Source: Martelella lutilitoris (GTDB lineage Bacteria > Pseudomonadota > Alphaproteobacteria > Rhizobiales > Rhizobiaceae). From it: DNA of 64,000 nucleotides. Of this stretch, positions 981 to 57,857 are shown piece by piece (position 1 is the first letter of the stretch; the number at the start of each line of letters is the position of its first letter). The stretch is taken from the NCBI RefSeq assembly GCF_016598595.1, contig NZ_CP066786.1, positions 2,255,501-2,319,500 on the forward strand, written 5' to 3'. The notes under the pieces are model-generated. The model was not told where the DNA came from. It saw only the letters and a program-made list of their open reading frames with translations, and did no database searches. Made by a program: the position numbers and the translations under genes.

Positions 981-2453
981 TCAATGGTGGCCGTCAAGAC
1001 TGATGCCGCGCGTCTCGATGCGGAAGAAGAAGGTTACCGCCGCGCCGAGCAGCGAAGTCGCGACCAGACCGTAGAGCAGCGCCGTCGTGCCGATATCGGC
1101 CAGCAGGACCGGGAACAGGAAGGCCGTCATGCAGGCGCCGATCTTGGCGAAGGAGGCGGCAAATCCCGCGCCCGTGCCGCGGATATGGGTTGGAAACACC
1201 TCGCCCGCGATCAGGTATGTCTGGGCGTTCGGGCCGAGATTGGTCATGAAGTTGAACAGCATGAAACCGGTGAAGATCAGAGCCGTCTGCGTCGGGCCCG
1301 AGTAGCTTCCGGCCTGCGCGGCGATGAACAGGCCGACGGCGCAGCCGATGAAGCCGAAGACCTGCAGGCGGATGCGGCCGATGCGATCGGCAAGCAGAAC
1401 GGCGCCGATGATGCCGACCAGAAGCAGAAGGTCGAGCAGCGCCGTTCCCTTGGCGGCGATCAGGTCGTTGTTCACCAGATCGGCGACATTGCGGACATGT
1501 TCGGTCTTGTGGCCAACGGTCGCGGCCAGAATGGTGGGCGTGAAGATGCCGATGCCATAGGTACCGAGATCCTGAAGGAACCACGGCACGGAGGACAGGA
1601 TCAGCGGCCGCAGATTGTGCCTCTGGAACAGCGCGCGATAGCCGGTCCTCTTCTTGTGCGCGAGTTGCGGCGGCTCGGAGACGCTGACCTTGGTCGGATA
1701 GGCCGGCACCCGTTTCAGAAGCTTCTGCAGCTCCGACTCGGCCTCCTTGCCGCGGCCATGGACGGCAAGCCAATGCGGGCTTTCGGGGATGAAGAACCGG
1801 CCGATGAACACGGCGAGCGCCGGAATGATCGCCACGCCGTACATCCAGCGCCATGCCCCGATCGAGGGATCGAGGGTCAGGATGACATAGCCGAGCAGCG
1901 TGCCGAAGATCGCGCCGACGGCCTGAAAACCGAAGGCCGACAGCACCAGCCCGCCCCGTGTCTTCGACGGCGTGCTTTCGGAAATCACCAGATGCGCGGT
2001 CGGGTAGTCGCATCCGAGCGCCAGCCCCATGCCGAACAGGCAGACGATCAGCCAGGAGAAGCTCTGGGTGAAGATGATCGCCGTAAGGAAGGCGATGAAG
2101 AGGCCGAGTTCCATGATGAAGACACGCTTGCGGCCGAACCGGTCCGCAAGCCCGCCAAGCGCGCTGGCGCCGATGAGAATGCCGAACAGAGAAGCCGAAC
2201 CGACCATGCCGTGCTGCGTCGCGTTCAGGCTGAATTCCGATGCGATCAGCGGCATGGCGACGCCCGTCATGAACACCACCAGACCTTCGAAAAACTTGCC
2301 GGCGACCGACAGCCACCAGATGCGCCACTGGGTTCCCGTCATTTTCGGAGGCGGCGCTTCCGTGCCGTCAACCCAGTAGGGACGTTCGTCGATATAGAAC
2401 TGAACGCTTCTGGCCCGGTCCAGGCGACCGTGGTCAGTCGACATCTCATTCAT
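981..2453 (-). CDS. MFS transporter, sugar/organic-acid porter type
   Basis: A 490-residue inner-membrane secondary transporter with about 12 hydrophobic segments. The conserved cytoplasmic loop between helices 2 and 3 is visible as LADRFGRKR and repeated in the second half as LADRIGRIR. PESPHWL matches the PESPRWL signature after helix 6 of the sugar-porter family. A hydrophilic N-terminus of about 60 residues precedes the first helix. The ATG at 2453 was chosen because GAGAGGAA lies just upstream; an open frame continues to 2510 but lacks a ribosome site. It is monocistronic and divergent from the hemerythrin-like gene. The substrate is unknown: sugars, aromatic acids and other carboxylates are all carried by relatives. 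Confidence 0.85.
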   Translation of the reverse strand: MNEMSTDHGRLDRARSVQFYIDERPYWVDGTEAPPPKMTGTQWRIWWLSVAGKFFEGLVVFMTGVAMPLIASEFSLNATQHGMVGSASLFGILIGASALGGLADRFGRKRVFIMELGLFIAFLTAIIFTQSFSWLIVCLFGMGLALGCDYPTAHLVISESTPSKTRGGLVLSAFGFQAVGAIFGTLLGYVILTLDPSIGAWRWMYGVAIIPALAVFIGRFFIPESPHWLAVHGRGKEAESELQKLLKRVPAYPTKVSVSEPPQLAHKKRTGYRALFQRHNLRPLILSSVPWFLQDLGTYGIGIFTPTILAATVGHKTEHVRNVADLVNNDLIAAKGTALLDLLLLVGIIGAVLLADRIGRIRLQVFGFIGCAVGLFIAAQAGSYSGPTQTALIFTGFMLFNFMTNLGPNAQTYLIAGEVFPTHIRGTGAGFAASFAKIGACMTAFLFPVLLADIGTTALLYGLVATSLLGAAVTFFFRIETRGISLDGHH

Positions 2454-2595
2454 GGCATTTCCTCTCGGTCTGCTCATATACCTTTTACGGGAATGTCTTA
2501 TCCGTCGCACTTGTGAGTTTCATGACATTTGCAGGCCTTCCGGGCATCAGCAATGCACAGCGTTCACGCGCGGGGAAGCGGCAACATCGCCATTC

Positions 2596-2609
2596 TTGAC
2601 CTAAGTCAA
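2596..2609. promoter_or_regulatory. FNR/FixK-type box upstream of hemerythrin-like gene
   Basis: TTGAC-CTAA-GTCAA is a perfect 5-bp dyad with a 4-bp spacer, close to the FNR/FixK consensus TTGAT-N4-ATCAA. Its centre is 70.5 bp before the start codon at 2673, almost the same distance as for the hemN box. It could also act on the divergent MFS gene. Confidence 0.7.
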
Positions 2610-2672
2610 TGAAGGCGGAGCGCATTTGACCGCAAATGGCGCATGAACGGTCGAGTCAGCAGGGAGGAACGC

Positions 2673-3158
2673 ATGACGGCCGAAACCCTCGCGACTGATT
2701 GCCTGGACACGCAATTGACCCAGCAGATACCCGAAACGAACAACCCGGCAAGCGTGGCGATGGGCGAGGCCCACGCCGCGATCCGGCGCCTGTGCGAAGC
2801 ACTGGAAGACGTTGCCGACTCGCTTCCCGCCAATGTCAATCGCGGCGACTGTCGGCGACTGGCCGAAGAACTGGTGCCGGCGCTGCGCACGGCGCAGGAA
2901 ACGGAAGAAATGCAGGTTTTTCCGGCGATCCGCCGCGCGGCCGGCGCACGCGCCGTCGCCGAGGCGCTCGACCGACTGACCTATGAACACTTCGAAGACC
3001 TTTGCTTTGCCGAAGAGGTCACCGACGTCCTGCGCCGGCTTGCAAACGGCAGCACGGTCAATACCGAAGCGGTCGGCTACATGCTGCGCGGCCTTTTCGG
3101 CGCGTTGAGGCGCCACCTGTCTTTCGAACAGGAGCTCGTTGCCGGACGCCTGAGATAA
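2673..3158 (+). CDS. hemerythrin-like (HHE) protein
   Basis: A 161-residue cytosolic, mostly helical protein of the hemerythrin HHE cation-binding type. Candidate iron ligands are His34, the Glu78-Glu79 pair, His106 with Glu109, and His148 with Glu152, spaced as in a four-helix bundle with a di-iron centre. Relatives sense or buffer oxygen or nitric oxide. The ATG at 2673 follows AGGGAGGA; an earlier in-frame ATG at 2643 has no ribosome site. The FNR-type box 70 bp upstream suggests induction at low oxygen by the FnrN encoded 7.7 kb away. It converges on lpxXL with a 19-bp gap. The iron centre is inferred from residue spacing only. Confidence 0.75.
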   Translation: MTAETLATDCLDTQLTQQIPETNNPASVAMGEAHAAIRRLCEALEDVADSLPANVNRGDCRRLAEELVPALRTAQETEEMQVFPAIRRAAGARAVAEALDRLTYEHFEDLCFAEEVTDVLRRLANGSTVNTEAVGYMLRGLFGALRRHLSFEQELVAGRLR

Positions 3159-3177
3159 TCGGGCGTCGTCCGCTCCG

Positions 3178-4104
3178 CTATCGTTTGCGGCGCGCCCAGC
3201 GGTCGTGGTACCAGAGCCATTGCTCCGGGTATTCGCGCACCCAGCTTTCCACCTTGTCGTTCAGCGCCTGGGCCGTGGCGGCCACGTCCACCGCGCCCTT
3301 CTCCGTCCGGGGAAGCGGCATTTCCTCTTCGAGCTCGAGGCGGAAGCGGTTGTCCGGCAGCCTGATGCAGCGCGCGGGAAATATCTTGCAATCGAACTGG
3401 CGCGCAAGTTTGGCGAGAAGCGGGTTGGTGCGCACCTCCTGGCCGAAATAGGACGACGGCGAACCGCGCTTGAACTTCTGGTCGACAAGGACGCCAACCC
3501 CCCTGCCCGCATCGAGCGCGCTGGCGAGCGCAAAGGCGGAGCCCGCATGGGAGGGCACGAGTTCGCCCATGCGCTTGCGGCGAAAGCGGAAGACCTTCTC
3601 GGCGATATAGGGATTGTTCGGCGGGCGGAAGAGGACCGAGACGTTGAGCCCGAAAGATGCGGCAGCGACCGGAAGCAGCTCGAAATTCGCCGTATGGGCC
3701 GTGAACACGATGAACGGCTTGTCGAGTGCCAAAAGATCCATGAAACGTTCCACGCCCGCCACTTCGATGCGGCCCGCGTCCGGCCTTTCCGGATCGAAAT
3801 CGAAAAGCTCGTCGAGAAATACGTATTCCGCCGCGAGCCGGCCGATATGGCCCCAGCTGGCAAGCGCGATCCGCTCGACTTCCGCCTCCTCCATCTCGGG
3901 AAAGGCGCAGCGCAGGTTTTCAAGCACCAGCTTGTGCCGGCCGGTATAGGGTCCGATCTTGCGCATCGCCCAGTCGGCAAACCTGATCGAACCGTCCGCC
4001 GGAAACAGTTTCATCACGGAGAGAAGTCCGAATACCAGATAGGCTATCAGCCATTGCTGGAACTGTCGGGCCTTGAGCACGATGCGGGTGATGGAGGATT
4101 TCAC
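3178..4104 (-). CDS. lpxXL: lipid A very-long-chain acyltransferase LpxXL
   Basis: Membrane-bound acyltransferase of the LpxL/HtrB family, 308 residues. In rhizobia LpxXL moves the 27-hydroxyoctacosanoyl group from AcpXL onto lipid A. One N-terminal hydrophobic segment lies near residues 17-33, and the catalytic HX4(D/E) motif is His137-Thr-Ala-Asn-Phe-Glu142. A second conserved block RPPNNPY follows near residue 159. It is the last gene of the acpXL cluster, in the same order as in Rhizobium leguminosarum, which is why LpxXL is preferred over generic LpxL. The start is GTG (4102-4104) with a weak ribosome site; the next Met is inside the membrane helix. A 150-bp gap with a strong hairpin separates it from adh2XL. 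Confidence 0.9.
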   Translation of the reverse strand: MKSSITRIVLKARQFQQWLIAYLVFGLLSVMKLFPADGSIRFADWAMRKIGPYTGRHKLVLENLRCAFPEMEEAEVERIALASWGHIGRLAAEYVFLDELFDFDPERPDAGRIEVAGVERFMDLLALDKPFIVFTAHTANFELLPVAAASFGLNVSVLFRPPNNPYIAEKVFRFRRKRMGELVPSHAGSAFALASALDAGRGVGVLVDQKFKRGSPSSYFGQEVRTNPLLAKLARQFDCKIFPARCIRLPDNRFRLELEEEMPLPRTEKGAVDVAATAQALNDKVESWVREYPEQWLWYHDRWARRKR

Positions 4105-4127
4105 GAATCAGGATCCCAGAATTGACT

Positions 4128-4158
4128 GCGGGCAGCGCGAATAAACCGCGCTGCCCGC
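4128..4158. promoter_or_regulatory. 12-bp hairpin between adh2XL and lpxXL
   Basis: Perfect arms 4128-4139 and 4147-4158 around a 7-nt loop. On the plus strand it is followed by CTTTT; on the minus strand, the direction of the operon, no T-run follows. It may be an mRNA processing or stability element, or a terminator for transcripts coming from the hemerythrin-like side. Confidence 0.6.
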
Positions 4159-4254
4159 CTTTTAACGACGATTCTTGTTTACGCCAAGCTTAACAACACC
4201 GGACGCCTGAAGTGTCCCTTGTGCCTCCATTCGGATGCAAGAAGCACGACGCGC

Positions 4255-5286
4255 TCAGTCGCCGATCTGAAGCACGATCTTGCCGAAGACCTGGCGGCTT
4301 TCCATCCGCTCCAGCGCCTTGTCGATGCCGTCGAAATCGACAAGCGTATCGATGACCGGGTGGATGATGCCCTGCGCCATCTTCTGCATGGCGTCCGCCA
4401 TGTTCTCCATCCGGCAGCCGAAGGAGCCGAAGAATTTCAGTTGCTGCTGGAAAAGCATCATCAGATTGACGTTGGTGGAAACGCCCGAGGTCGACCCGCA
4501 GGTCACAAGGCGACCGCCGCGCTTCATCGACAGCATGGATCCGGCCCAGGTTTCCGCGCCGACATGCTCGAAAACGACGTCGACGCCCTTCTTCTTCGTC
4601 AGCTTGCGGACCACGCCCTCGAACCGGTCTTCGCGGTAATTGATCACATGATCCGCGCCAAGCGCGCGCGCCTTTTCCATCTTGTCTTCGGAGCCCACTG
4701 TGGTGATCACCGTGCAGCCCATCTTCTTTGCAAGCTGGATCGCCGCCGAGCCGATGCCCGAACCGCCGGCGTGCACCAGGATGGTCTCGCCCGGCTGGAG
4801 CTTCGCATTGTCGAACAGCATGTGCTCCACCGTGCCGAAGGTCACCGGCGCCAGCGCTGCGGCAATCGCGTCAACGCCGGGCGGCGCGACAACGAGCTGG
4901 CGGGCGGGAATGTTGATCCTGTCTCGGGCGAAGCCGTCGAGATGGAAACCATGGACGCCGCCCACATGTTCGCACAGATTGTCCCGGCCCTCACGACAGG
5001 CCTTGCAACGCCCGCAGACCCGCGCGCCATAGATCGAGACGAGATCACCCGGCAGAACATTGGAAACACCGGGGCCGATCGCTTCGACAATGGCGGAGGC
5101 TTCCGCACCGATGGTGAGCGGCAGCTTGCGCTTGGCAAAGGCCATGCCGCGCCAGCCCCAGACATCGATATGGTTGAGCGCCACCGCCTTCGGTCGCAGC
5201 GTCACCTCGCCCGGACCGGGCGCTTCCGGCTCGGAAACATCCATAAGCTCGATCTTGCGGTCGTCTGTCAGCTGCAATGCGCGCAT
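4255..5286 (-). CDS. adh2XL: zinc-binding alcohol dehydrogenase of the VLCFA cluster (Adh2XL)
   Basis: A 343-residue medium-chain dehydrogenase/reductase. The structural zinc site is visible as four cysteines (91, 94, 97 and 105), and the Rossmann fold shows as HAGGSGIGSAAIQLA. In the rhizobial acpXL cluster this position encodes a dehydrogenase or reductase, possibly the enoyl reductase step or a step in making the omega-1 oxygenated C28 chain; the exact reaction is not settled. The ATG at 5286 is preceded by GAAGGAA. It lies 69 bp after fabF1XL and before lpxXL, all on the minus strand, so co-transcription is likely. By sequence alone it could be any quinone-oxidoreductase-like MDR protein; the neighbours give the assignment. 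Confidence 0.85.
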   Translation of the reverse strand: MRALQLTDDRKIELMDVSEPEAPGPGEVTLRPKAVALNHIDVWGWRGMAFAKRKLPLTIGAEASAIVEAIGPGVSNVLPGDLVSIYGARVCGRCKACREGRDNLCEHVGGVHGFHLDGFARDRINIPARQLVVAPPGVDAIAAALAPVTFGTVEHMLFDNAKLQPGETILVHAGGSGIGSAAIQLAKKMGCTVITTVGSEDKMEKARALGADHVINYREDRFEGVVRKLTKKKGVDVVFEHVGAETWAGSMLSMKRGGRLVTCGSTSGVSTNVNLMMLFQQQLKFFGSFGCRMENMADAMQKMAQGIIHPVIDTLVDFDGIDKALERMESRQVFGKIVLQIGD

Positions 5287-6650: not shown

Positions 6651-7853
6651 TCACTTCTCGCCGACAAGCACGGCAACACCTTCGCCGCGCTGCAGGCCGA
6701 CGGTGGTCACGGCGATCTTCTCGGCCCGCGCCGACATCGATGCCTCTCCGTCATTGAAGACGGGCACCGGCGCCTTGGCATCGAGCGAAAGTGCGGCCAG
6801 CGCAATGCCGAGGGGGAAATTGGCCTCCATGGCGTGGCCGGTGATGCCGGTATAGCCGCGCAGCGGCGTTGCCGGGAAACTTGTCCTCAGGAAGTCGGCT
6901 TCCTGCTTCGTCAGCGAGCTCAGACCGGTGGCGCCGGAGAAGACGGCCTCGCCCTCTCCGCCCGCAAAGCCCGCATCGGCAAAGAGCCGGCCCAGCCGCT
7001 TTTCAAACCTGCCGTCATCCCGTTTGCCGCGATCGCCCTCGACGCCGGCAAGCGTTGCGTAGACATGCGCGCCGCGCGCCTCGGCATAGGCGCGGGATTC
7101 GAGTACCAGGAACGCGCCTGCCGAACCCATGACCATACCGCCATCGTCCTCGGCGGCCCTGTCCCAGAGCGGCGCCCATTTGCCGCGCGACAGCGCATGA
7201 ACCGCCTCGAACATCAACAGGATGTCGCGCCGCTCGGCCACGAAGGAGGCGCCGACGAGCGTATGCGTCGACTGGCCGGCGAGTATGCGGGCATATGCCG
7301 TGGCAACAGCCGAAATGCCAGCGGCTTCCTCGCCCATGAAGGTGCGCGACGAACCGGTGACCTTGTGGACGATCGAGATATTGCCGGCAACCAGATTGGC
7401 GAGCTGCGCGAGAAAAAGCGTCGGGCGCAGTTCGGTCGTCAGCTTTTCATTCAGCAGGATTTCGCGGTCGGTGCGCTCGCGCGCCTCGTTGACGATCATC
7501 GTGTCGACGGCAATGTCGCGCTCGCCGCCGCCGGCGGCCACGATCATGTCCATGGTCGAGCAGATGTCTTCATTGCCCTTCACGCCGGCGTCATCGAGTG
7601 CCAGACCGGCGGCATAGACGCCGAGGCGCTGCCAGTTCTCCATCTGGCGCTGGTCGCCGCGCTTCGGGATCTGGTCTTTCCAGTCGATCTCGGGCAGCGG
7701 ATGCACCGGATAGGGCGCGCAGATTTCGTCATCGACGCGCATATCGGGCGCCGCGCCGCCGGTCAGCATGGCGACATGCGGCGCCTGGCCGACGCCGAAA
7801 CTGGTCACAAGCCCGATACCGGTGACAACGACATCATTGTCCGATTTCGTCAT
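6651..7853 (-). CDS. fabF2XL: degenerate beta-ketoacyl-ACP synthase (FabF2XL), KS-beta-like
   Basis: A 400-residue protein with the thiolase fold of FabF (N-terminal VVVTGIGLVTSFG, C-terminal GITGHAMEANFPLG). The catalytic cysteine position is replaced: where FabF1XL has TACASGA, this protein has VTGSSRTF (residues 165-172), with no cysteine. The NAHGTST histidine motif is replaced by SGATG (307-311). Only the last histidine, His340, remains. It therefore cannot condense by the normal mechanism and resembles the chain-length-factor (KS-beta) partner of type II polyketide synthases. The start at 7853 lies one base after the fabZXL stop, so translation is probably coupled; an upstream in-frame Met at 7952 is inside fabZXL. 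Confidence 0.88.
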   Translation of the reverse strand: MTKSDNDVVVTGIGLVTSFGVGQAPHVAMLTGGAAPDMRVDDEICAPYPVHPLPEIDWKDQIPKRGDQRQMENWQRLGVYAAGLALDDAGVKGNEDICSTMDMIVAAGGGERDIAVDTMIVNEARERTDREILLNEKLTTELRPTLFLAQLANLVAGNISIVHKVTGSSRTFMGEEAAGISAVATAYARILAGQSTHTLVGASFVAERRDILLMFEAVHALSRGKWAPLWDRAAEDDGGMVMGSAGAFLVLESRAYAEARGAHVYATLAGVEGDRGKRDDGRFEKRLGRLFADAGFAGGEGEAVFSGATGLSSLTKQEADFLRTSFPATPLRGYTGITGHAMEANFPLGIALAALSLDAKAPVPVFNDGEASMSARAEKIAVTTVGLQRGEGVAVLVGEK

Positions 7854-7854
7854 T

Positions 7855-8343
7855 TCAGGACCTTTCCACGGTCTGGCCGTTCTCGATCGCGGCGAAGAGG
7901 CCGACTTCCTCGGCCCGTCGCCTGACGATCGGCGCCAGATCATTGTCTTCAAAAGAAAGCGTGCGGAATTTCAGCTGCGCACTGGCGATCGGCTTGCCCG
8001 CGGAGGCGATCTTCGCCTTGGTCACGGCAAAGCCCGAGCCTTCGTGCTCCAGCGCCGCCTCGATATCGAGCACGGCATGCGGCTCGACGAAGCTGCGCAG
8101 CTTGGCGCTGTCGACCATCATCAGGAAGGGCATGGCCGAACAGTTGTTCACGCCCAGAAGCAGCATGCCGGAGGCCTGCGCCATGGTCTCGATCAACAGC
8201 ACACCCGGCACAAGCGGCATGCCGGGAAAATGCCCTTCGAACACGGGGCTCTTCTCCGGCACCGTCGAACGCGCGACGATCCGGCCCGCGGAAATGTCCA
8301 CGGACACGATCTCGTCGATCATCTGGAAGTATTCGAGCAGCAT
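7855..8343 (-). CDS. fabZXL: 3-hydroxyacyl-ACP dehydratase FabZXL
   Basis: A 162-residue hot-dog-fold dehydratase that removes water from 3-hydroxyacyl-ACP during chain elongation. Catalytic His38 lies in FEGHFPG and the acidic partner Glu52 in LIETMAQ, both typical of FabZ. The ATG at 8343 follows GAAGG by seven bases. It sits second in the cluster after acpXL, as in rhizobia. Its length is slightly above housekeeping FabZ (about 150 residues), through a C-terminal extension of about 15 residues. Confidence 0.92.
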   Translation of the reverse strand: MLLEYFQMIDEIVSVDISAGRIVARSTVPEKSPVFEGHFPGMPLVPGVLLIETMAQASGMLLLGVNNCSAMPFLMMVDSAKLRSFVEPHAVLDIEAALEHEGSGFAVTKAKIASAGKPIASAQLKFRTLSFEDNDLAPIVRRRAEEVGLFAAIENGQTVERS

Positions 8344-48223: not shown

Positions 48224-48712
48224 TTGGACCTGGATGATATCGATCGTGCGATCCTGAAGACGCTTCAGAACAATGGCCGCATCACCAATGCCGAGCTGGC
48301 CGAGACCGTGGGCCTGTCGCCCTCGGCCTGTTCGCGGCGGCTTGATCTTCTGGAAAAAAGCGGCGTGATCGCGGGCTATACCGCCAGGATCTCCCCCGAT
48401 GCGCTTGGATACAAGATGACGGCGCTGGTCCATATCTCGCTTTCCGGCCAGTTCGCCCGCACGCTTGCCGAATTCGAGGAGGCCGTCAGGCGCTGCCCGA
48501 ACATCATTGTCTGCTACATGGTCTCGGGCCAGTACGACTATATCCTGCGCGTGGCGGCAAAGGACCTGAAGGATTACGAGCGCATCCACCGCGACTGGCT
48601 CTCGGCGCTGCCCCATGTGGTGCAGATCAATTCCTCATTCGCGCTCCGTCCCATCATCGAACGTCTCAACGTCGATGTCGACGAGGCGTTCACCGCGCCA
48701 ACGGCTTCTTGA
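48224..48712 (+). CDS. Lrp/AsnC-family transcriptional regulator
   Basis: A 162-residue regulator with an N-terminal helix-turn-helix (about 5-60: LDDIDRAILKTLQNNGRITNAELAETVGLSPSACSRRLDLLE) and a C-terminal RAM ligand-binding domain. Such proteins respond to amino acids. The TTG at 48224 is chosen because AGGGAG lies eight bases upstream and LDLDDIDRAIL is the usual Lrp beginning; an upstream TTG at 48158 has no such site. It overlaps the convergent GNAT gene by 23 bp at the 3' ends. Confidence 0.92.
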   Translation: MDLDDIDRAILKTLQNNGRITNAELAETVGLSPSACSRRLDLLEKSGVIAGYTARISPDALGYKMTALVHISLSGQFARTLAEFEEAVRRCPNIIVCYMVSGQYDYILRVAAKDLKDYERIHRDWLSALPHVVQINSSFALRPIIERLNVDVDEAFTAPTAS

Positions 48713-49280
48713 TCATCAGCAGCCAGTCGTCACCGTCGGCATGCCAGTCGGGCGCCGTCACCAGGGCCTGCCGCGCCCTTTCCTCAAAACCGAGGCGTTC
48801 ATAGAACCGCCTGGCAGGCGCGTTGGCATCCGAGACGATCAGGCTGATATCGCTGTCTCCAGAGATACGATCCGCCTTGTCGAGGAGAAAGGAGCCGAGT
48901 CCGCGCCCCCGATATTCCGCATAGGCCGCCAGAACATGAATGTGGAAGGTGCCCTCGGCCTGACGTTTCAGATCGCGGAGCGGCGTCACCACGGGATGAT
49001 CGATCTCGCAGCCATAGCCCGGCGCCTGGCCCTCGAGCGGGTAGGCAAGCATCAGCGCGGCGACGTCCGAACCGAGCGTGGCGACCGTGCCATTGGTCCA
49101 GGAAATCGCCCCTTCATCCCGCGCGGCAAGCGTGCGGCCGACCTGCCACGGATCGTCCCGCCCGCCCTCAAGCTGGCCCCAGCACCACAGCGGCAGGCGA
49201 TGACCGGCGATATTGATCAGCCGCACCATGTCCGGCACATCCTCGCGGGCCGCATTTCGGATCGTGAAACTGGTTACCAA
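48690..49280 (-). CDS. GNAT-family N-acetyltransferase
   Basis: A 196-residue acetyltransferase with the acetyl-CoA loop in AYAEYRGRGLGSFLLDKAD (Q/RxxGxG/A as RGRGLG) and the VSDANAPARRFYERLGF motif B. The TTG at 49280 has GGAGGGAAG just before it; an ATG at 49340 has no such site. Substrate unknown. It is divergent from cpdB. Confidence 0.84.
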   Translation of the reverse strand: MVTSFTIRNAAREDVPDMVRLINIAGHRLPLWCWGQLEGGRDDPWQVGRTLAARDEGAISWTNGTVATLGSDVAALMLAYPLEGQAPGYGCEIDHPVVTPLRDLKRQAEGTFHIHVLAAYAEYRGRGLGSFLLDKADRISGDSDISLIVSDANAPARRFYERLGFEERARQALVTAPDWHADGDDWLLMIKKPLAR

Positions 49281-49457
49281 ACTTCCCTCCCGTATTGACG
49301 GCCGGCACGCCCTCCACATAGCGTACCATGATCGTTTCAAAATCGACCCAAGGTTGGTGCTTAATCCCGCCGGATGTCAACCGCCTGTCACATGACGGTG
49401 CGAAGCGATGATGGCGTTCCATAAATTTCCGCGCAAGCGATGAACCCCGGAGCTCTC

Positions 49458-51446
<1,989 letters not shown>

Positions 51447-51479
51447 TCGTTTGATTTTTTGGCAAAGCGGAATAGCAGA

Positions 51480-51509
51480 GGCCGGCCTGAGGGCTGGCCT
51501 TTGTTTTGT
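51480..51509 (+). terminator. intrinsic terminator after cpdB
   Basis: AGGCCGGC (51480-51487) pairs with GCTGGCCT (51494-51501), with one G-T pair, then TTGTTTTGT. It marks the left side of the accessory segment. Confidence 0.82.
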
Positions 51510-51736
51510 CTCCCGATTCCGACTCGGTGTCATCGTCGGTCTTGTTACACGGAAGGCGCAAAGAGGAGTCACCGTTCTCGTCTGGCAGAAAGACGTACGA
51601 AGGGCGGGCAGCGATCTTTTGCGGCAGATTCTATGCACGACCAAGTTGGGGCCGGTTGCGGACTGGCGGACTCGAAGCGTCTATAGTAGAAAAACTGCTA
51701 TTCATTGAGTTGCGTCAATACAAGGATCGGAAGGAT

Positions 51737-52285
51737 ATGGCGTATGACGAAGGGGAGCATGTCAAAGAAGTATTCGCCTATTTCGGTCGGGAATATTACG
51801 AAGCGGGCGTGTTAGAAACGGGACTAGCGATTGCTCTCATGCAGATTAATTTCCTGTGCCGCGTCCACGATCAATATTCGGCTGATCGGGGAAAATCCTT
51901 TGATCGGACACAGTACGAAGCTGAATTCGATCGGTTTATGCAGAACCAACACGCACAGACATTAGGCAATCTCATCAAGCGCGTTTCGGCATTGCCCGAG
52001 CTCAGTGATATCCTAAAAGAAAGGCTTAGGGACGCTAAGAAGCGCAGGGATTTTCTGGGCCATCACTACTTTAGGGAAAGGGCAGTCGAGTTCAGCAATC
52101 GCGCCGGCCGCGACAAGATGATAGCGGAACTTCACAATGACGGTGATATATTTGAAGCGATCGATCGTGATCTTTACGCTGAATTGGCACCAATCCGTGA
52201 GAAGCTTGGAATGGCCGGTGAAAAGTTCAAAAAGTATCTCGCGCAGTTTTATGCTACACATGGCGTGGGGCCTTTGACCGACTAA
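51737..52285 (+). CDS. small HEPN-like protein upstream of helicase
   Basis: A 182-residue, mainly helical cytosolic protein of no named family known to me. The visible motif is R104-x4-H109 (RRDFLGHHYFRERA), the pattern of HEPN RNases, followed by GRDKMIAEL. From residue 77 to 132 it aligns without gaps with residues 61-116 of the protein encoded at 54290 (16 of 56 identical), and 24 N-terminal residues align too (EVFAYFG against ELYAKFG). The two are therefore paralogues. The ATG at 51737 has GGAAGGAT next to it; the frame is open further upstream but has no ribosome site. It has many CTA, TTA and ATA codons unlike its neighbours. RNase activity is inference only. Confidence 0.8.
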   Translation: MAYDEGEHVKEVFAYFGREYYEAGVLETGLAIALMQINFLCRVHDQYSADRGKSFDRTQYEAEFDRFMQNQHAQTLGNLIKRVSALPELSDILKERLRDAKKRRDFLGHHYFRERAVEFSNRAGRDKMIAELHNDGDIFEAIDRDLYAELAPIREKLGMAGEKFKKYLAQFYATHGVGPLTD

Positions 52286-52314
52286 CCGTTGCAGTCAATG
52301 TGTGCACAAGAATC

Positions 52315-52331
52315 TTTTTTTTTGGGGGGGG
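52315..52331 (+). repeat. T9-G8 homopolymer tract at the helicase ribosome-binding site
   Basis: Nine T (52315-52323) followed by eight G (52324-52331), then TGAA and the ATG at 52336. The G run is the only Shine-Dalgarno-like sequence for the helicase. Slippage would change its strength or spacing. Confidence 0.7.
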
Positions 52332-52335
52332 TGAA

Positions 52336-54285
52336 ATGGCTTGGTCTGAGGGGTTAGCACTAGGAAGTCCTGCCTATCAAATTGCAGCGTCAAATAATCT
52401 CCGTGTGCGCGTTGTGGCAGGTCCCGGCACGGGTAAATCGTTCGCGATGAAACGTCGGGTGGCACGGCTCTTGGAACAAGGAATCCCGCCAGCGTCAATC
52501 CTGCCGGTTACGTTTACTCGTGTCGCCGCAGAAGACCTCCATCGTGAGTTAATCAGTATGGACGTGGTAGGTAGCGACAGATTGACGGGCGTTACACTCC
52601 ATAGTCTTGCCATGCGGATGCTGATGCGAAATCACGTGCTAGGCGCAACTGGCAGAGTGCCACGGCCACTCAACGACTTTGAACTGGAACCGCTCATTTG
52701 CGACTTGATGGGCGCACATGGAGGAAAAAAGACGGTAAAGAAGTTCAAGCAAGCGTATGAGGCGGCTTGGGCTCGACTACAACATGAGCAGCCGGGATAT
52801 GTCCTCGATCCTGCAGACGCGGCATTTCAACAGGACCTACTAAATTGGCTCCACTTTCATCGCGCTATGCTAATCGGCGAGGTGATCCCTCAGTTATATC
52901 AGTACCTCCGAAACAACCCGGCAGCGCAGGAGCGCACGGAGTTCCAGCACATATTAGTTGATGAGTATCAGGACCTCAACCGTGCGGAACAATCGGTCAT
53001 CGAGCTTCTTTCTGATGAGGCTCACGTCTGCATTGTCGGCGACGATGACCAGTCGATCTACAGCTTCAAGCATGCTCATCCAGACGGTATTCGCGAATGG
53101 CTCGTTGCAAATTCCGACGCGGATGATCTTGGGCTAGATGATTGTCGCCGTTGCCCGACTTGCGTCGTAGAGATGGCCAACAACCTAATCGGCCACAACC
53201 AAATCAGACCAGTCCCTCGAGCGCTGGTCTCGCTGCCCGCCAATGGGCCGGGCGATGTCCGGATTATTCAATACCAGTCGCTCGCAAATGAGGTGAACGG
53301 CGTTGCGAACATCATCGCGGGGATGGTTACGAACGGTACGCCACCCGGCGACATACTGGTGCTTGCGCAGCGTGGCGTGATCGGAACGCCGATCTATGAG
53401 GCGCTTGTCGCCCTACAGATCCCAGTGCGGTCTTACTATGCGGAAGCGGAACTTGACGCATTAGAAGCTCGCCGCGCGTTCGCGAAGCTGAAACTGCTTA
53501 TCGACAGAGACGACCGTGTCGCCCTGCGATGGCTGGTCGGAATTGATGGCAATAATTGGCACGCGGCAGGCTACCGTCGTGTGCGCGACCATTGCGAGGC
53601 TTCCGGTCTGACGCCGTGGTATGTGCTAGAGCAGATCGCAGCGGGAAACCTTTCTTTGCCTCATACTGGCGGCATCGTCGTCGCTTTCAATGACCTCGTA
53701 ATGGAACTGACGGCGTTGGAGGCGCTTCCGGACTTAGCTTCTATCGTCGATGAGCTATTCCCGGATGGGCAAACCACAACACGTGACATCCGGCAACTGT
53801 CGATCGACATTCTTGCCGAAATGGATATGGAAGAAGGCGCTGAAGGTGAGGAAATCAATGGCGAGTTCCTGGCACGGCTTCAAGAAGCGATAAACCAGCC
53901 CGACATCCCTTCGGAAATCCAAGACGTGCGGATCATGAGCCTTCACAAGAGCAAAGGGCTTAGCGCGCCTGTCACGATCATCGCGGGCTGCATTCAAGGC
54001 TTACTCCCAAAGCAGCCCGACAACGCACTTCCCGCTGCCCAGCAAGTCCTAGCAATGGAAGAGCAACGGCGGCTGTTCTATGTTGGCATCACGCGGGTAA
54101 AAGCAGCGCCAAATGCTGGCAAGCCGGGCACGCTGATTCTGAGCTACTCACAGACAATGCCGGTGGCATCTGCCCTTGGGGCAGGCATCACGCCTGCGCA
54201 GACGCAGTATGGCATCGCGTCTCTTCACGCGAGCCAATTTATCGCCGAGTTAGGTCCGGCAGCGCCGCAGCCAATCGCAGGCTAG
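52336..54285 (+). CDS. UvrD/Rep-type superfamily 1 helicase (short form)
   Basis: A 649-residue ATP-dependent helicase. In order: a Q-type motif (PAYQIAAS), Walker A AGPGTGKS (28-35), motif Ia TFTRVAAEDL (59-68), DEYQD (209-213), motif III GDDDQSIYSFKH (235-246), motif V SLHKSKGL (535-542) and motif VI QRRLFYVGITRVK (577-589). All are intact. It is shorter than UvrD (about 720) and lacks the C-terminal extension; no nuclease domain is seen. The start at 52336 follows the G8 run. It lies 50 bp after one HEPN-like gene and 4 bp before the other, so the three form an operon. Codon use differs from flanking core genes. Its chromosomal role is not clear; a defence function is inferred from the context. 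Confidence 0.9.
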   Translation: MAWSEGLALGSPAYQIAASNNLRVRVVAGPGTGKSFAMKRRVARLLEQGIPPASILPVTFTRVAAEDLHRELISMDVVGSDRLTGVTLHSLAMRMLMRNHVLGATGRVPRPLNDFELEPLICDLMGAHGGKKTVKKFKQAYEAAWARLQHEQPGYVLDPADAAFQQDLLNWLHFHRAMLIGEVIPQLYQYLRNNPAAQERTEFQHILVDEYQDLNRAEQSVIELLSDEAHVCIVGDDDQSIYSFKHAHPDGIREWLVANSDADDLGLDDCRRCPTCVVEMANNLIGHNQIRPVPRALVSLPANGPGDVRIIQYQSLANEVNGVANIIAGMVTNGTPPGDILVLAQRGVIGTPIYEALVALQIPVRSYYAEAELDALEARRAFAKLKLLIDRDDRVALRWLVGIDGNNWHAAGYRRVRDHCEASGLTPWYVLEQIAAGNLSLPHTGGIVVAFNDLVMELTALEALPDLASIVDELFPDGQTTTRDIRQLSIDILAEMDMEEGAEGEEINGEFLARLQEAINQPDIPSEIQDVRIMSLHKSKGLSAPVTIIAGCIQGLLPKQPDNALPAAQQVLAMEEQRRLFYVGITRVKAAPNAGKPGTLILSYSQTMPVASALGAGITPAQTQYGIASLHASQFIAELGPAAPQPIAG

Positions 54286-54289
54286 GACA

Positions 54290-54739
54290 TTGGCGACACG
54301 TGATGAACTCTACGCAAAGTTCGGCATAACGGCGGAAGCCGCACAGCTATTCGAGGTTGAACTAGGCTCTCTGCTTCTCTGCGCCCGCGCGATCGAACAA
54401 GACTGGAGTTTTAAAGCTGACCCCGATAAGGCGCGAAAGCTTCTTCGCGACATCGACCGGAGCACGCTAGGCCACCTGCTTCGCAGCTTGGAAAAATGCG
54501 TAGTGCTTGACGATGGATTGGCTGACCGCTTCGCGTCCGCGCTGCACACGCGGAACAGGTTGTTTCATCGCTTCTATGAATCCCACAACTTCAAAATCCA
54601 GACCGACGCAGGGCGTGATGGTATGATGTCTGACCTTGAGGCGATGCATGTCGAGCTTTTCAACGCTTGGCAGATCGCCAGCAGCATGACCGCTACTGCG
54701 ACAGCATTCTTGCTTAGACTAAGACGCAAGGGAGATTAG
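54290..54739 (+). CDS. small HEPN-like protein downstream of helicase
   Basis: A 149-residue helical protein. R88-x4-H93 in TRNRLFHRFYESH fits the HEPN RNase motif closely, and GRDGMMSDLEAMH follows. It is colinear with the 182-residue protein encoded at 51737. The start is TTG at 54290, four bases after the helicase TAG, with AGGA next to it, so translation is probably coupled to the helicase. This type of protein (AlxxRNRLxHxF) is widely found as a hypothetical next to mobile or defence genes, but I know no characterised member. Function is unproven. Confidence 0.8.
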   Translation: MATRDELYAKFGITAEAAQLFEVELGSLLLCARAIEQDWSFKADPDKARKLLRDIDRSTLGHLLRSLEKCVVLDDGLADRFASALHTRNRLFHRFYESHNFKIQTDAGRDGMMSDLEAMHVELFNAWQIASSMTATATAFLLRLRRKGD

Positions 54740-54861
54740 TCGCTGCGTCGATCTACTGTGTAATTCACCCACGACGTCCGCATTTCGCCGAGAGAAAAGT
54801 CTGCTGGAACGTCCGAAATGAGGGCACAAAGCAGTCGCAAATATTCGCCTCTCTACGACAA

Positions 54862-54890
54862 GGCTTCAGCCGCCCTCGTGGCTGGAAGCC
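54862..54890. repeat. hairpin at the right edge of the accessory segment
   Basis: GGCTTCAGCC (54862-54871) pairs with GGCTGGAAGCC (54880-54890) with one bulged base, then seven C and seven A. It lies between the small HEPN-like gene and the end of cckA. The T-run is on the wrong side for a cckA terminator, so the role is unsure. Confidence 0.45.
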
Positions 54891-54904
54891 CCCCCAAAAA
54901 AACC

Positions 54905-57553
54905 TCACCCCTCCCGCAGCATCTCCCACACGGCCGCCACCAACTGCTTCAGATTATACGGCTTCGGGAGAAACCCGAACTTGGCGTCATCCGGCAGGTT
55001 TTTCGCAAAGGCGTCGTCGGCATAGCCGGAGACGAAGATGAATTTCAGTTCCGGATATTCCTTGCGCGCCTCGCGCAGCAGCGTCGGGCCGTCCATTTCC
55101 GGCATGACCACGTCGGAGACGACGATGTCGACCGCGCCTTCGAGCTTTTCCAGGATCTTCAGCGCATGCACGCCGGTATCGGCCTCGTGCACGGTGAAGC
55201 CGCGCATTTCCAGCATGCGCTTGCCCGAGCGGCGCACGGCGTCCTCGTCTTCCACCAAGAGCACCACGGCCGACTGGCCGGTGAGGTCCATATCCTCCTC
55301 GCGCGGGGCTTCGTTGTCGCTCTCATTGCCCTCGGAGAAGGCCGAGGCGATCGGCTGGCCCTTGTGGTCTTTCGGCGCTTCGACCGTTTCCTCTGTTCCG
55401 ACGCGCACATGGCGCGGCAGGAGGATGATGAAGCGGGTGCCCTTGCCGACCTCGGAGACGGCGTTGAGGAACCCGCCCGACTGGGTGACGATGCCATAGA
55501 CCATGGCAAGGCCGAGCCCGGTGCCCTTGCCCACATCCTTGGTGGTGAAGAAGGGCTCGAAGATCTTGTCCAGCACTTCCGGCGGAATGCCCGTGCCGGT
55601 GTCGGCGACTTCGATTTCCACGTAATCGCGTTCCGGCACCTCGCGCAGGCCAAGGCTCACGACCTCGCCGGCTGCGATATTGCGGGTGCTGATCGTCAGC
55701 GTGCCGCCGTCCGGCATGGCGTCGCGCGCATTGACGCAGAGATTGGTGATCACCTGGCCGAACTGGCCCGGATCGGTGCGCACCGGCCAGAGATCGCGGG
55801 CAAAATCGGTCGTCAGCCGGATATCAGATCCGCCGGTCAGCCGCTCGATCATCATCCGGTTGTCGCCGATGACGTCGTTGAGATCGACCACTTCCGGCCG
55901 CATGGTCTGCTGGCGCGAGAAGGCCAGCAACTGCCGCACCAGGCCCGAGGCGCGGTTGGCATTGCGCTTGATCTCGACCAGATCGGCGAATTCCGGGTCG
56001 GAGGCGCGCGACTGCAGCAGAAGATGATCGGCCGACAGGAGAATGGCCGTCAGCACATTGTTGAAGTCATGGGCGATGCCGCCGGCAAGAGTGGCGACGG
56101 CATTGAGCTTCTGCGTGCGCGCCATCTGCGCCTCGAGCGCCTTCTGCTCGCTGATCTCGATGACATAGACGAGCGCCACGGCATCCGGCCCGCAATCGCG
56201 CGCGGCATGGACGAAAACCCGGAAATGGCGGGCGTCATCGCGCGCATGGCGCACCTCGAAGGGGGCGATCTCGCCCTGCCCGTCGGCGGCAGCCGCCAGC
56301 GCGTCACGCGCCTTCTGCCGGTCGCCCTCCTCGATCAGCCCGCCGATTCCCGCGCCCCGGCCCACTTCCTCGCGCTTCAGGAGGTCGCTGAACATGGCCA
56401 GGAAACGCGCATTGGTGGTCAACAGGCGACCGTCGCGATCAAGCGTGGCAATCGCCATCGGCGTGTCGTCGAAGAAGCGGCCCTGTCCGGCAAGGCCCGT
56501 CTCGGCGTCCCTGCCTTCCTCGCGCTTCAGCACCACGGTGCGGCTTTCGGCCGGGTGGCCGTCGCGGCCTCCGGTCATGTCATGCAGCAAGGTCACCGGC
56601 ATGTGACGCCCGGACGGCAGACGCAGCGAGGCCTCGACCGTCTCGCTCAACCGCTGCCCCGGCTCGGCCTCAAGCGTGTCGAGAAGGGTCATGCCCTCGC
56701 CGCCGATCACATCGGCAAGACGCACCGTCCCGGCGACGAAACCCGCCAGGTCGATGCCGAGCCAGCCGGCGAGCGTGGCGTTCAGATAGCGGATCTTGCC
56801 TTCGCCATCTGAGGTCAGAAAGCCGACCGGCGCATGATCCAGATAATCAATTACCTTCTGCAACTCCTTGAAATAGCGCTCCTGTTCCTGCCTCTCCTCG
56901 GTAATGTCGGAGATCTGCCAGATGTTGAAATTGCGGGTGTGGGCGCGGCTGTCGGTCACCGGAAAGAAACGGGCGCCGAGGCGGTACCAGCGCGCCTCCC
57001 CCTTGCCCGAAAGCGGGTGCGCCAGGCGGAACTCCTCCTGGTCGTCGTCGCCGCCGCGCACAGACTGCGTCAGCCTGTAGAGCACTTCGGAGCTCTCCGG
57101 CTCCTCCGACAGCAGGGCCTCTAGACTGGGCGGCAGGCCGCCATCCGTCGCGCCTGTCAGCCGGCCATAGGCCGCATTGGCGTAGACCATGCGGTCACGG
57201 TGGTCGGTAATGACAACGGCCTGGGGGAACTGATCCAGAAACGGACCGGCAAAGCTGTTCTGCCGGGCGCCGGGAAAGAGCTGGGCCAGGCCGGTCAGCA
57301 CGGCAAGGCCGAAAAACACGCCGAGAACCGCGAAAAGCCCGAGGATCGCGAGCAGGATATCCTCCGGCAGATAGCCGCGATACTGATAGCCGATGGTGAC
57401 GATCACCGCCAGAATGAGCAGAACCAGCGCAAGCTTGGCGACAACGCCGGAGCCGGGCCCTCGCCTGATGACGGGCTTGGCAGCCTTTTCGCTCTGTCGA
57501 TCCATTGCAACCTCATCATCTGCGCTTTCCGGCGGTAAGTCACGGAAGCGCAT
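54905..57553 (-). CDS. cckA: hybrid histidine kinase/phosphatase CckA
   Basis: An 882-residue inner-membrane kinase that controls the master cell-cycle regulator CtrA through ChpT. Two N-terminal membrane helices (about 40-56 and 64-90) are followed by PAS-type domains (about 100-480), a HisKA domain with phosphorylated His495 ([11 protein letters not shown]), a HATPase domain and a C-terminal receiver with Asp814 ([11 protein letters not shown]). The layout is that of alphaproteobacterial CckA. The start at 57553 is uncertain; Met codons at 57634 and 57505 are in frame. No CtrA box (TTAA-N7-TTAA) was seen upstream. Confidence 0.93.
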
Positions 57554-57857
57554 ATTCTCTGCATCTCTTCTTCTGCGGAAAAGGCGACCGACGCCCCTCC
57601 GCCCGGCATGCGCCAGGCCGCCCGCGAGGGGCAAGCTTTAGTCATTCTGACGCGTCAAGATAGGCTGAAATGCTTAAAATTGGGTATTGGACGGGCGAAT
57701 CTCTACAGAGGACGGCGATGCCCTGCAGTTCTGCCTTGAAGGCGCCCGCCAAAAAGTTGATATTCCGGTCACAACGCGCTTGAAACCCTGGCGCGAAATA
57801 CGAAACCGGCCACAATTGATTCCGGCTCCTTGAAGAAGACTGCCGAGCGAAAGACAT
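57554..57857. other. cckA/FliO-like divergent intergenic region, 304 bp
   Basis: Lies between the divergent cckA and FliO-like genes; about 80 bp may be coding if cckA starts at 57634. No hairpin, repeat or clear factor site was found. It must contain both promoters. Confidence 0.6.

Follow-up and report, generated by a model that had tools for sequence, protein, structure and literature searches.

A mobile three-gene cassette combining a UvrD-like helicase with two homologous HEPN-like proteins is a candidate anti-phage module in Martelella lutilitoris

The 64,000-nucleotide stretch of Martelella lutilitoris DNA analysed here (the window; contig NZ_CP066786.1) contains a trio of open reading frames (ORFs) on the forward strand, which we call A, B and C, and which moves between genomes as one cassette. 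Gene A (51737-52285, ATG start, 182 residues) and gene C (54290-54739, TTG start, 149 residues) encode small, all-helical HEPN-like proteins carrying an R-x4-H motif, and gene B (52336-54285, ATG start, 649 residues) encodes a UvrD/PcrA-type helicase of superfamily 1. Relatives of the parts of the trio are found in known anti-virus gene clusters, and the trio is, therefore, probably an undescribed defence against viruses. Judged from genomic context, a role of A-B-C in defence of some kind is the better-supported part of our interpretation and is likely. The fuller reading, that of a horizontally moving module for anti-phage defence with B as sensor and motor and A/C as effector, has in our estimation about an even chance of being correct when taken as a whole, and the specific mechanism, in which B gates an A/C HEPN RNase, falls somewhat short of that.

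Evidence for the trio as a unit is that its DNA recurs in four other Hyphomicrobiales, at 85-90% identity, in unrelated sites with different flanks. These are Mesorhizobium LSHC420B00 (locus L007; 90.2% identity over 3194 bases), Pseudochelatococcus lubricantis (L008; 87.3% over 3148 bases), Rhizobium Root1220 (L009; 85.4% over 3192 bases) and Rhizobium CFBP 8762 (L061; 85.3% over 2929 bases, ending at window position 54573 inside C). The cassette is about 3.2 kb long (51646-54838, forward strand), and its edges differ by tens of bases between comparisons, lying at 51637-51677 on the left and at 54823-54838 on the right. Its G+C content (0.51-0.58 over 51500-54999) is lower than that of the DNA on either side (0.60-0.65 over 48500-51499 and 0.64-0.68 over 55000-57499). 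No terminal repeats were seen by eye in the edge alignments, in which no dedicated repeat search was made. The surroundings of the copies vary: in L061 the BREX genes for PglX (5.8e-273), PglZ and BrxL lie directly upstream of A-B-C, in L008 there is a MobA-type relaxase gene, and in L007 the neighbours encode a LacI regulator and 6-phosphogluconate dehydrogenase. In the L007 copy (around 7410) the ATG with which A begins is replaced by ACG, so that in that Mesorhizobium the gene may be silent or its start wrongly placed.

The insertion site is itself variable (51447-54904, no strand assigned). It is bordered by the ORFs at 49440-51446 (forward strand) and 54905-57634 (reverse strand), which we take, by recognition and not by family search, to be cpdB and cckA. 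In a genome of the same genus (G222) the flanking genes are 201 bp apart, measured between aligned protein ends, and the site is nearly empty. Three further genomes (G276, G081 and G161) have gaps of 3.8, 4.6 and 2.7 kb filled with other genes, which we presume from the ORF lists, not from a family search, to encode regulators, oxidoreductases, a GGDEF protein, an acetyltransferase and Xre-type regulators. B was found in none of these four genomes at E <= 1e-100.

An earlier note on this DNA, made from the sequence alone, had described three tightly packed genes on one strand, the last with a TTG start, and the ORF coordinates agree, with gaps of 50 bp between A and B and 4 bp between B and C. 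Although the frame of B is also open from a GTG at 52300, all of the 12 sequences that were aligned share the methionine encoded at 52336. The ratios of nonsynonymous to synonymous substitution between cassettes are low for A (0.09-0.29, 10 pairs), B (0.09-0.15, 10 pairs) and C (0.10-0.31, 6 pairs), indicating purifying selection on all three genes.

The same note had read intact superfamily 1 motifs in the middle gene, and this is borne out. B matches the Pfam families UvrD-helicase (2.2e-36; 126.4 bits, cut-off 23) and UvrD_C (3e-18; 66.8 bits, cut-off 25.6), and its Walker A (GPGTGKS) and DExxQ (DEYQD) motifs are conserved in 12 sequences; by both domains and both motifs, B is a UvrD/PcrA-like superfamily 1 helicase. 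The solved structures closest to it are UvrD, PcrA and Rep. We considered that B might be a housekeeping orthologue of one of these proteins and rejected this, as its scores miss the NCBIfam equivalog cut-offs for pcrA (158.2 against 911.2 bits), uvrD (145.4 against 1144.45) and rep (127.1 against 951.45). Its best PADLOC matches are GajB models (5e-43), and at least 2990 relatives of B were found at E <= 1e-60.

A and C are homologous to each other. Profiles of 41 A-type and 51 C-type sequences align in hhalign with 97.5% probability (E 6e-12), reciprocal hidden Markov model searches concur, and both proteins match the phage family phrog_12893 (A at 7.5e-5, C at 5.1e-22). In the profile alignment R88 and H93 of C fall on R104 and H109 of A. 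We found 62 relatives of A and 312 of C, of which 120 were listed. R104 is present in all of the 61 A relatives that have a residue at that position and H109 in 98% of 60; among 121 C relatives the figures are 100% for R88 and 99% for H93. Furthermore, R88, L91 and H93 (C numbering), within the pattern R-[N/D]-x-L-x-H, are invariant in 16 diverse A- and C-type proteins, a set that includes gp38 of phage PSP3, three copies from E. coli prophages and two from rhizobial prophages, and one plasmid copy each from Pantoea and Tenderia. Because the residues are near-invariant across relatives, the R-x4-H motifs, which the earlier note had already pointed out in both flanking proteins, are more than chance occurrences. 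The two families also have in common a T-L-G motif and a G-R-[D/E] motif.

The HEPN signature is given in the available text of PMC3710099 as R-x4-6-H with N, D or H usually following the arginine, and A and C show this motif with a polar N or D after R. Structures were predicted for both (predicted local distance difference test 91.7 for A and 91.0 for C; predicted template modelling score 0.83 for each). HepT chains can be aligned with 100-120 residues of the models, a match no better than that to unrelated helical bundles. Foldseek comparisons of A and C with the PDB, and of C with viral models, gave no match at E <= 0.001, and profiles of A and C against PDB sequences gave only chance-level matches. 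Neither protein has a significant match in Pfam, NCBIfam or PADLOC, the Pfam search at E <= 1 giving only weak matches to DUF7403 and DUF3037. The hhalign probability against HepT (PF01934) is 0.8 for A and 1.4 for C, which is not significant, and the family is absent from the Pfam listing of both; among relatives, only 2 of 51 C-type (best E 0.028) and 1 of 41 A-type proteins (best E 0.0056) match HepT. The earlier assignment of the flanking proteins to HEPN is suggested by motif and helical topology and finds no significant counterpart in the HepT profile, and on the first two grounds we regard a HEPN fold as plausible for both. A/C may accordingly have an RNase activity dependent on the R and H residues.

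B is distributed sporadically, being present in 6 of 297 genomes of the family, and in a sample of 397 genomes of the order we found A in 3, B in 5 and C in 1, figures to be read as lower bounds because few candidates were scored per genome (up to 8 for A, 3 for B and 9 for C). For the neighbourhoods of B we used 54 of 58 loci, leaving out three short fragments (L059, L060 and L062) and one weak partial match (L064). A or C homologues adjoin B in 10 of the 54. The order A-B-C occurs in L007, L008, L009 and L061 and the order B-C in L036, L038, L039 and L058, while C is convergent in L010 and A is convergent in L021. In a tree of 51 B sequences (the window and 50 of the 54 loci), these loci occupy three separate places, namely an A-B-C clade that includes L010 (support 100/100), a B-C clade (100/99) and L021.

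Some of the more distant B homologues lie in other settings. The context is that of type I restriction in L051 (HsdM-HsdS-B-HsdR), L047 (B-HsdR) and L052 (HsdS-B-Abi_C); RhuM is encoded near B in L045 and L054, and Mrr_cat after B in L046. In L049 a gene with HEPN_RES_NTD1 and RES domains (6766-7968) is situated about 30 bp upstream of B, which, at the level of predicted domains, is a second link between the B helicase family and a HEPN-type domain. In L016 a PDC-S18 gene (DUF5655, NucS_C-like) lies about 300 bp upstream of B and has a BLAST-cluster mate in L019; both loci have a conserved ORF of 86 residues between this type of gene and B, and in both the opposite strand close by carries genes of the type I methylase or restriction type. 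Other neighbours are not of the defence type, such as a uracil-DNA glycosylase-family gene downstream of B in L031 and DUF3800 in L043, and several have no match at all. The neighbour proteins were hand-picked (10, 10, 9 and 10) without a control set, and the defence-type neighbours of B are, therefore, a pattern and not a measured enrichment. In a scan of IMG/VR with B, 187 candidates were obtained and 80 kept, of which only one (L090, 57% identity) was close, the other listed rows having at most 31% identity. On this viral-collection contig a frame-broken B homologue (1232-4776) stands beside a large serine-recombinase-type integrase gene, and the contig is probably not a phage but an integrative island.

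A- and C-type genes away from the trio are found in prophages and on plasmids. PSP3, a P2-like phage, encodes the C-type protein gp38 at its right end, past the replication gene. When the gp38 gene served as a nucleotide query, copies with 71-79% identity were detected in 30 of 5426 E. coli genomes, and in all four of the 30 loci that we viewed the gene is situated in the interval from the replication endonuclease to the portal gene. In each of the P2-like loci (L201-L204 and L001), no further gene separates the C-type gene from the portal/cos end, and its neighbours, which change from locus to locus, include an HNH endonuclease, DUF2971, DUF3850 and small ORFs. The interval between gpA and gpQ of P2 is described, in the available text of PMC9122126, as a hotspot of anti-phage systems. 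A-type genes stand beside phage portal genes in both matches outside the M. lutilitoris genome among the 397 genomes. C-type genes are present on 7 plasmid records; on a Sinorhizobium K101 plasmid one lies in an island with TIR-domain and HEPN-domain genes and a different UvrD-domain gene. Scans of IMG/VR with A and C alignments found no relatives, nor did a phage collection searched with A and one A-type prophage relative yield a match. The prophage-hotspot evidence, like the homology of A and C and the evidence for a mobile cassette, goes beyond what the earlier note had proposed.

One could envision the following mechanism for the trio. B, as a UvrD/PcrA-like 3'-5' motor, would load on abnormal DNA arising during infection, such as ends, gaps, or forked or single-stranded intermediates. 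A and C would form the effector, most simply as a heterodimer in which the two R-x4-H motifs make up one RNase site, and B in its working state would release or position this effector. Cleavage of RNA would then stop or kill the infected cell before the phage spreads. For the RNase activity of A/C, their dimerisation, the signal perceived by B and the coupling of B to the effector, we reason by analogy with GajB and HamB, which the accessible portions of PMC10952713 and PMC12278908 describe as helicases that sense DNA and activate a nuclease partner. If this proposal is correct, A-B-C would be a compact defence module that couples a repair-type helicase to an RNA-cutting pair, thus tying DNA surveillance to RNA cleavage. 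It would also give a testable meaning to phrog_12893, a phage family without an assigned function to which gp38 of PSP3 and the related E. coli prophage proteins of the gpA-gpQ hotspot belong, and would show that one helicase family is re-used with several effector types. A broader version, which we consider doubtful, is that B founds a so far unrecognised modular family of defence helicases acting as shared sensor and motor for exchangeable effectors (A/C, Mrr, HEPN-RES, type I, BREX), that A/C is a new HEPN-like family also used singly as inter-phage exclusion genes by P2-like and rhizobial prophages, and that in A-B-C the two HEPN-like proteins would make up an RNase only as a heterodimer, under the control of a DNA motor.

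We compared the trio with named systems. Gabija (GajA-GajB) likewise has a UvrD-like helicase as one partner, GajB being described as a DNA-end sensor in the part of PMC10952713 available; however, its other partner is an OLD/TOPRIM nuclease, in place of which the cassette has two HEPN-like proteins. No GajA-type OLD/TOPRIM nuclease adjoins B, where the next neighbours beyond A and C are the flanking ORFs, and the absence of such a nuclease stated in the earlier note is confirmed by the lack of Pfam and PADLOC matches for A and C. The Helicase + DUF2290 system of P4-like satellites also combines a UvrD-type helicase with a small protein in prophage and satellite hotspots (PMC9122126 and PMC10952713, in the text accessible), whereas A-B-C has two partners, neither of which matches DUF2290 at E <= 1; this comparison is one of the partner proteins. 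HepT of HepT-MntA, a type VII toxin-antitoxin system, resembles A and C in being all-helical with R-x4-H, but has no significant match to them by sequence or profile, and differs by the extra T-L-G and G-R-[D/E] motifs of A/C and by its MNT partner, since none of the three cassette proteins has a nucleotidyltransferase domain. These three identities were not adopted because the partner genes are absent. Hachiman (HamAB) has the same proposed logic, in which a sensor helicase holds and then activates an effector nuclease; in the available text of PMC12278908, though, HamB is likened to Hel308 and HamA is a DNase, unlike the UvrD/PcrA-like B and its HEPN-like effector. Finally, Table 1 of Anantharaman et al. 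2013 (PMC3710099), in the portion of the paper available, lists a fusion of DUF4145 HEPN with a UvrD helicase and fusions of superfamily I helicases with HEPN, so that the combination of these functions already has precedents. Compared with these fusions and operons, the trio consists of separate genes for two homologous, unclassified HEPN-like proteins and a short UvrD-like helicase. As the earlier note had supposed, no named system with this layout was found, either in Pfam, NCBIfam and PADLOC for A and C or in the literature combining UvrD, HEPN and anti-phage defence, within a coverage that takes in few subscription papers and preprints. Given the lack of a matching named system together with the fusions already listed, we regard A-B-C as a probable helicase-plus-effector kind of defence and not as a categorically new system.

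Several observations weigh against a single defence machine. The chief rival explanation is a loose association in which B works by itself as an accessory helicase for many defence or mobile elements, and A and C, as small exclusion genes of phage type, act independently and hitchhike with it. The earlier note had counted homologues lying mostly alone and in core positions as contrary evidence, and half of this was found: 44 of the 54 B loci have neither A nor C (some contigs end too near to judge one side), and both the A-type and the C-type family occur without the other, C in P2-like prophages and on plasmids and A beside prophage portal genes. In the 397-genome sample the three genes coincide only in M. 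lutilitoris itself. The truncation of C in L061, where the gene breaks off around window position 54573 with an HTH_21 (insertion-sequence-type) gene downstream (L061 9955-10323 and 10615-11304), likewise favours a loose association. Two of the five cassettes, those of the window and L007, lie between apparently ordinary chromosomal genes. Of the support that the earlier note had named, the same gene order at variable sites was seen in the four other genomes, and proximity to defence genes once, with BREX. Against a loose association stand the recurrence of A/C homologues beside B at three separate places in the tree in spite of the rarity of all three genes, the 4-bp spacing of B and C, and the conservation of the entire trio as DNA at unrelated sites. 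We hold this explanation to be unlikely, and the mobile defence module to be the preferred reading. The overall interpretation of the earlier note is thus partly supported, as regards a unit at variable sites without a named match, and is tempered by a HEPN fold resting on motif and topology and by parts that are often separate.

Two further explanations appear very improbable to us. One is a toxin-antitoxin-like unit, in which one HEPN-like protein is the toxin, the other is an inactive partner or antitoxin, and B regulates these two or maintains the element. That HEPN domains are common toxins (PMC3710099, in the text available) and that A and C are homologous would fit this scenario, but R and H are kept in both proteins, A-type and C-type genes occur without each other, the cassette has no MNT-type antitoxin by Pfam, and a toxin-antitoxin pair does not need a helicase. 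The other, about equally improbable, is a role in DNA repair or recombination without phage defence, with B as a PcrA-like repair helicase and A/C as DNA-binding or regulatory helical proteins. The PcrA/UvrD models are nearest to B and the glycosylase-family gene in L031 is suggestive of repair; on the other hand, B is sporadic and its site variable, its relatives reside in BREX and type I restriction loci, and its score is far below the curated PcrA/UvrD/Rep cut-offs.

Some minor observations concern the M. lutilitoris genome itself. A HepT-like gene is present on its third contig (G000:C3:78335-78553). The promoter scan found no promoter, with 1.8 expected by chance. Just 5' of the B start, at window positions 52315-52331, is a run of nine T and eight G residues, where relatives have about three T and five G; as judged from the sequence, this expanded homopolymer tract could make the expression of B phase-variable.

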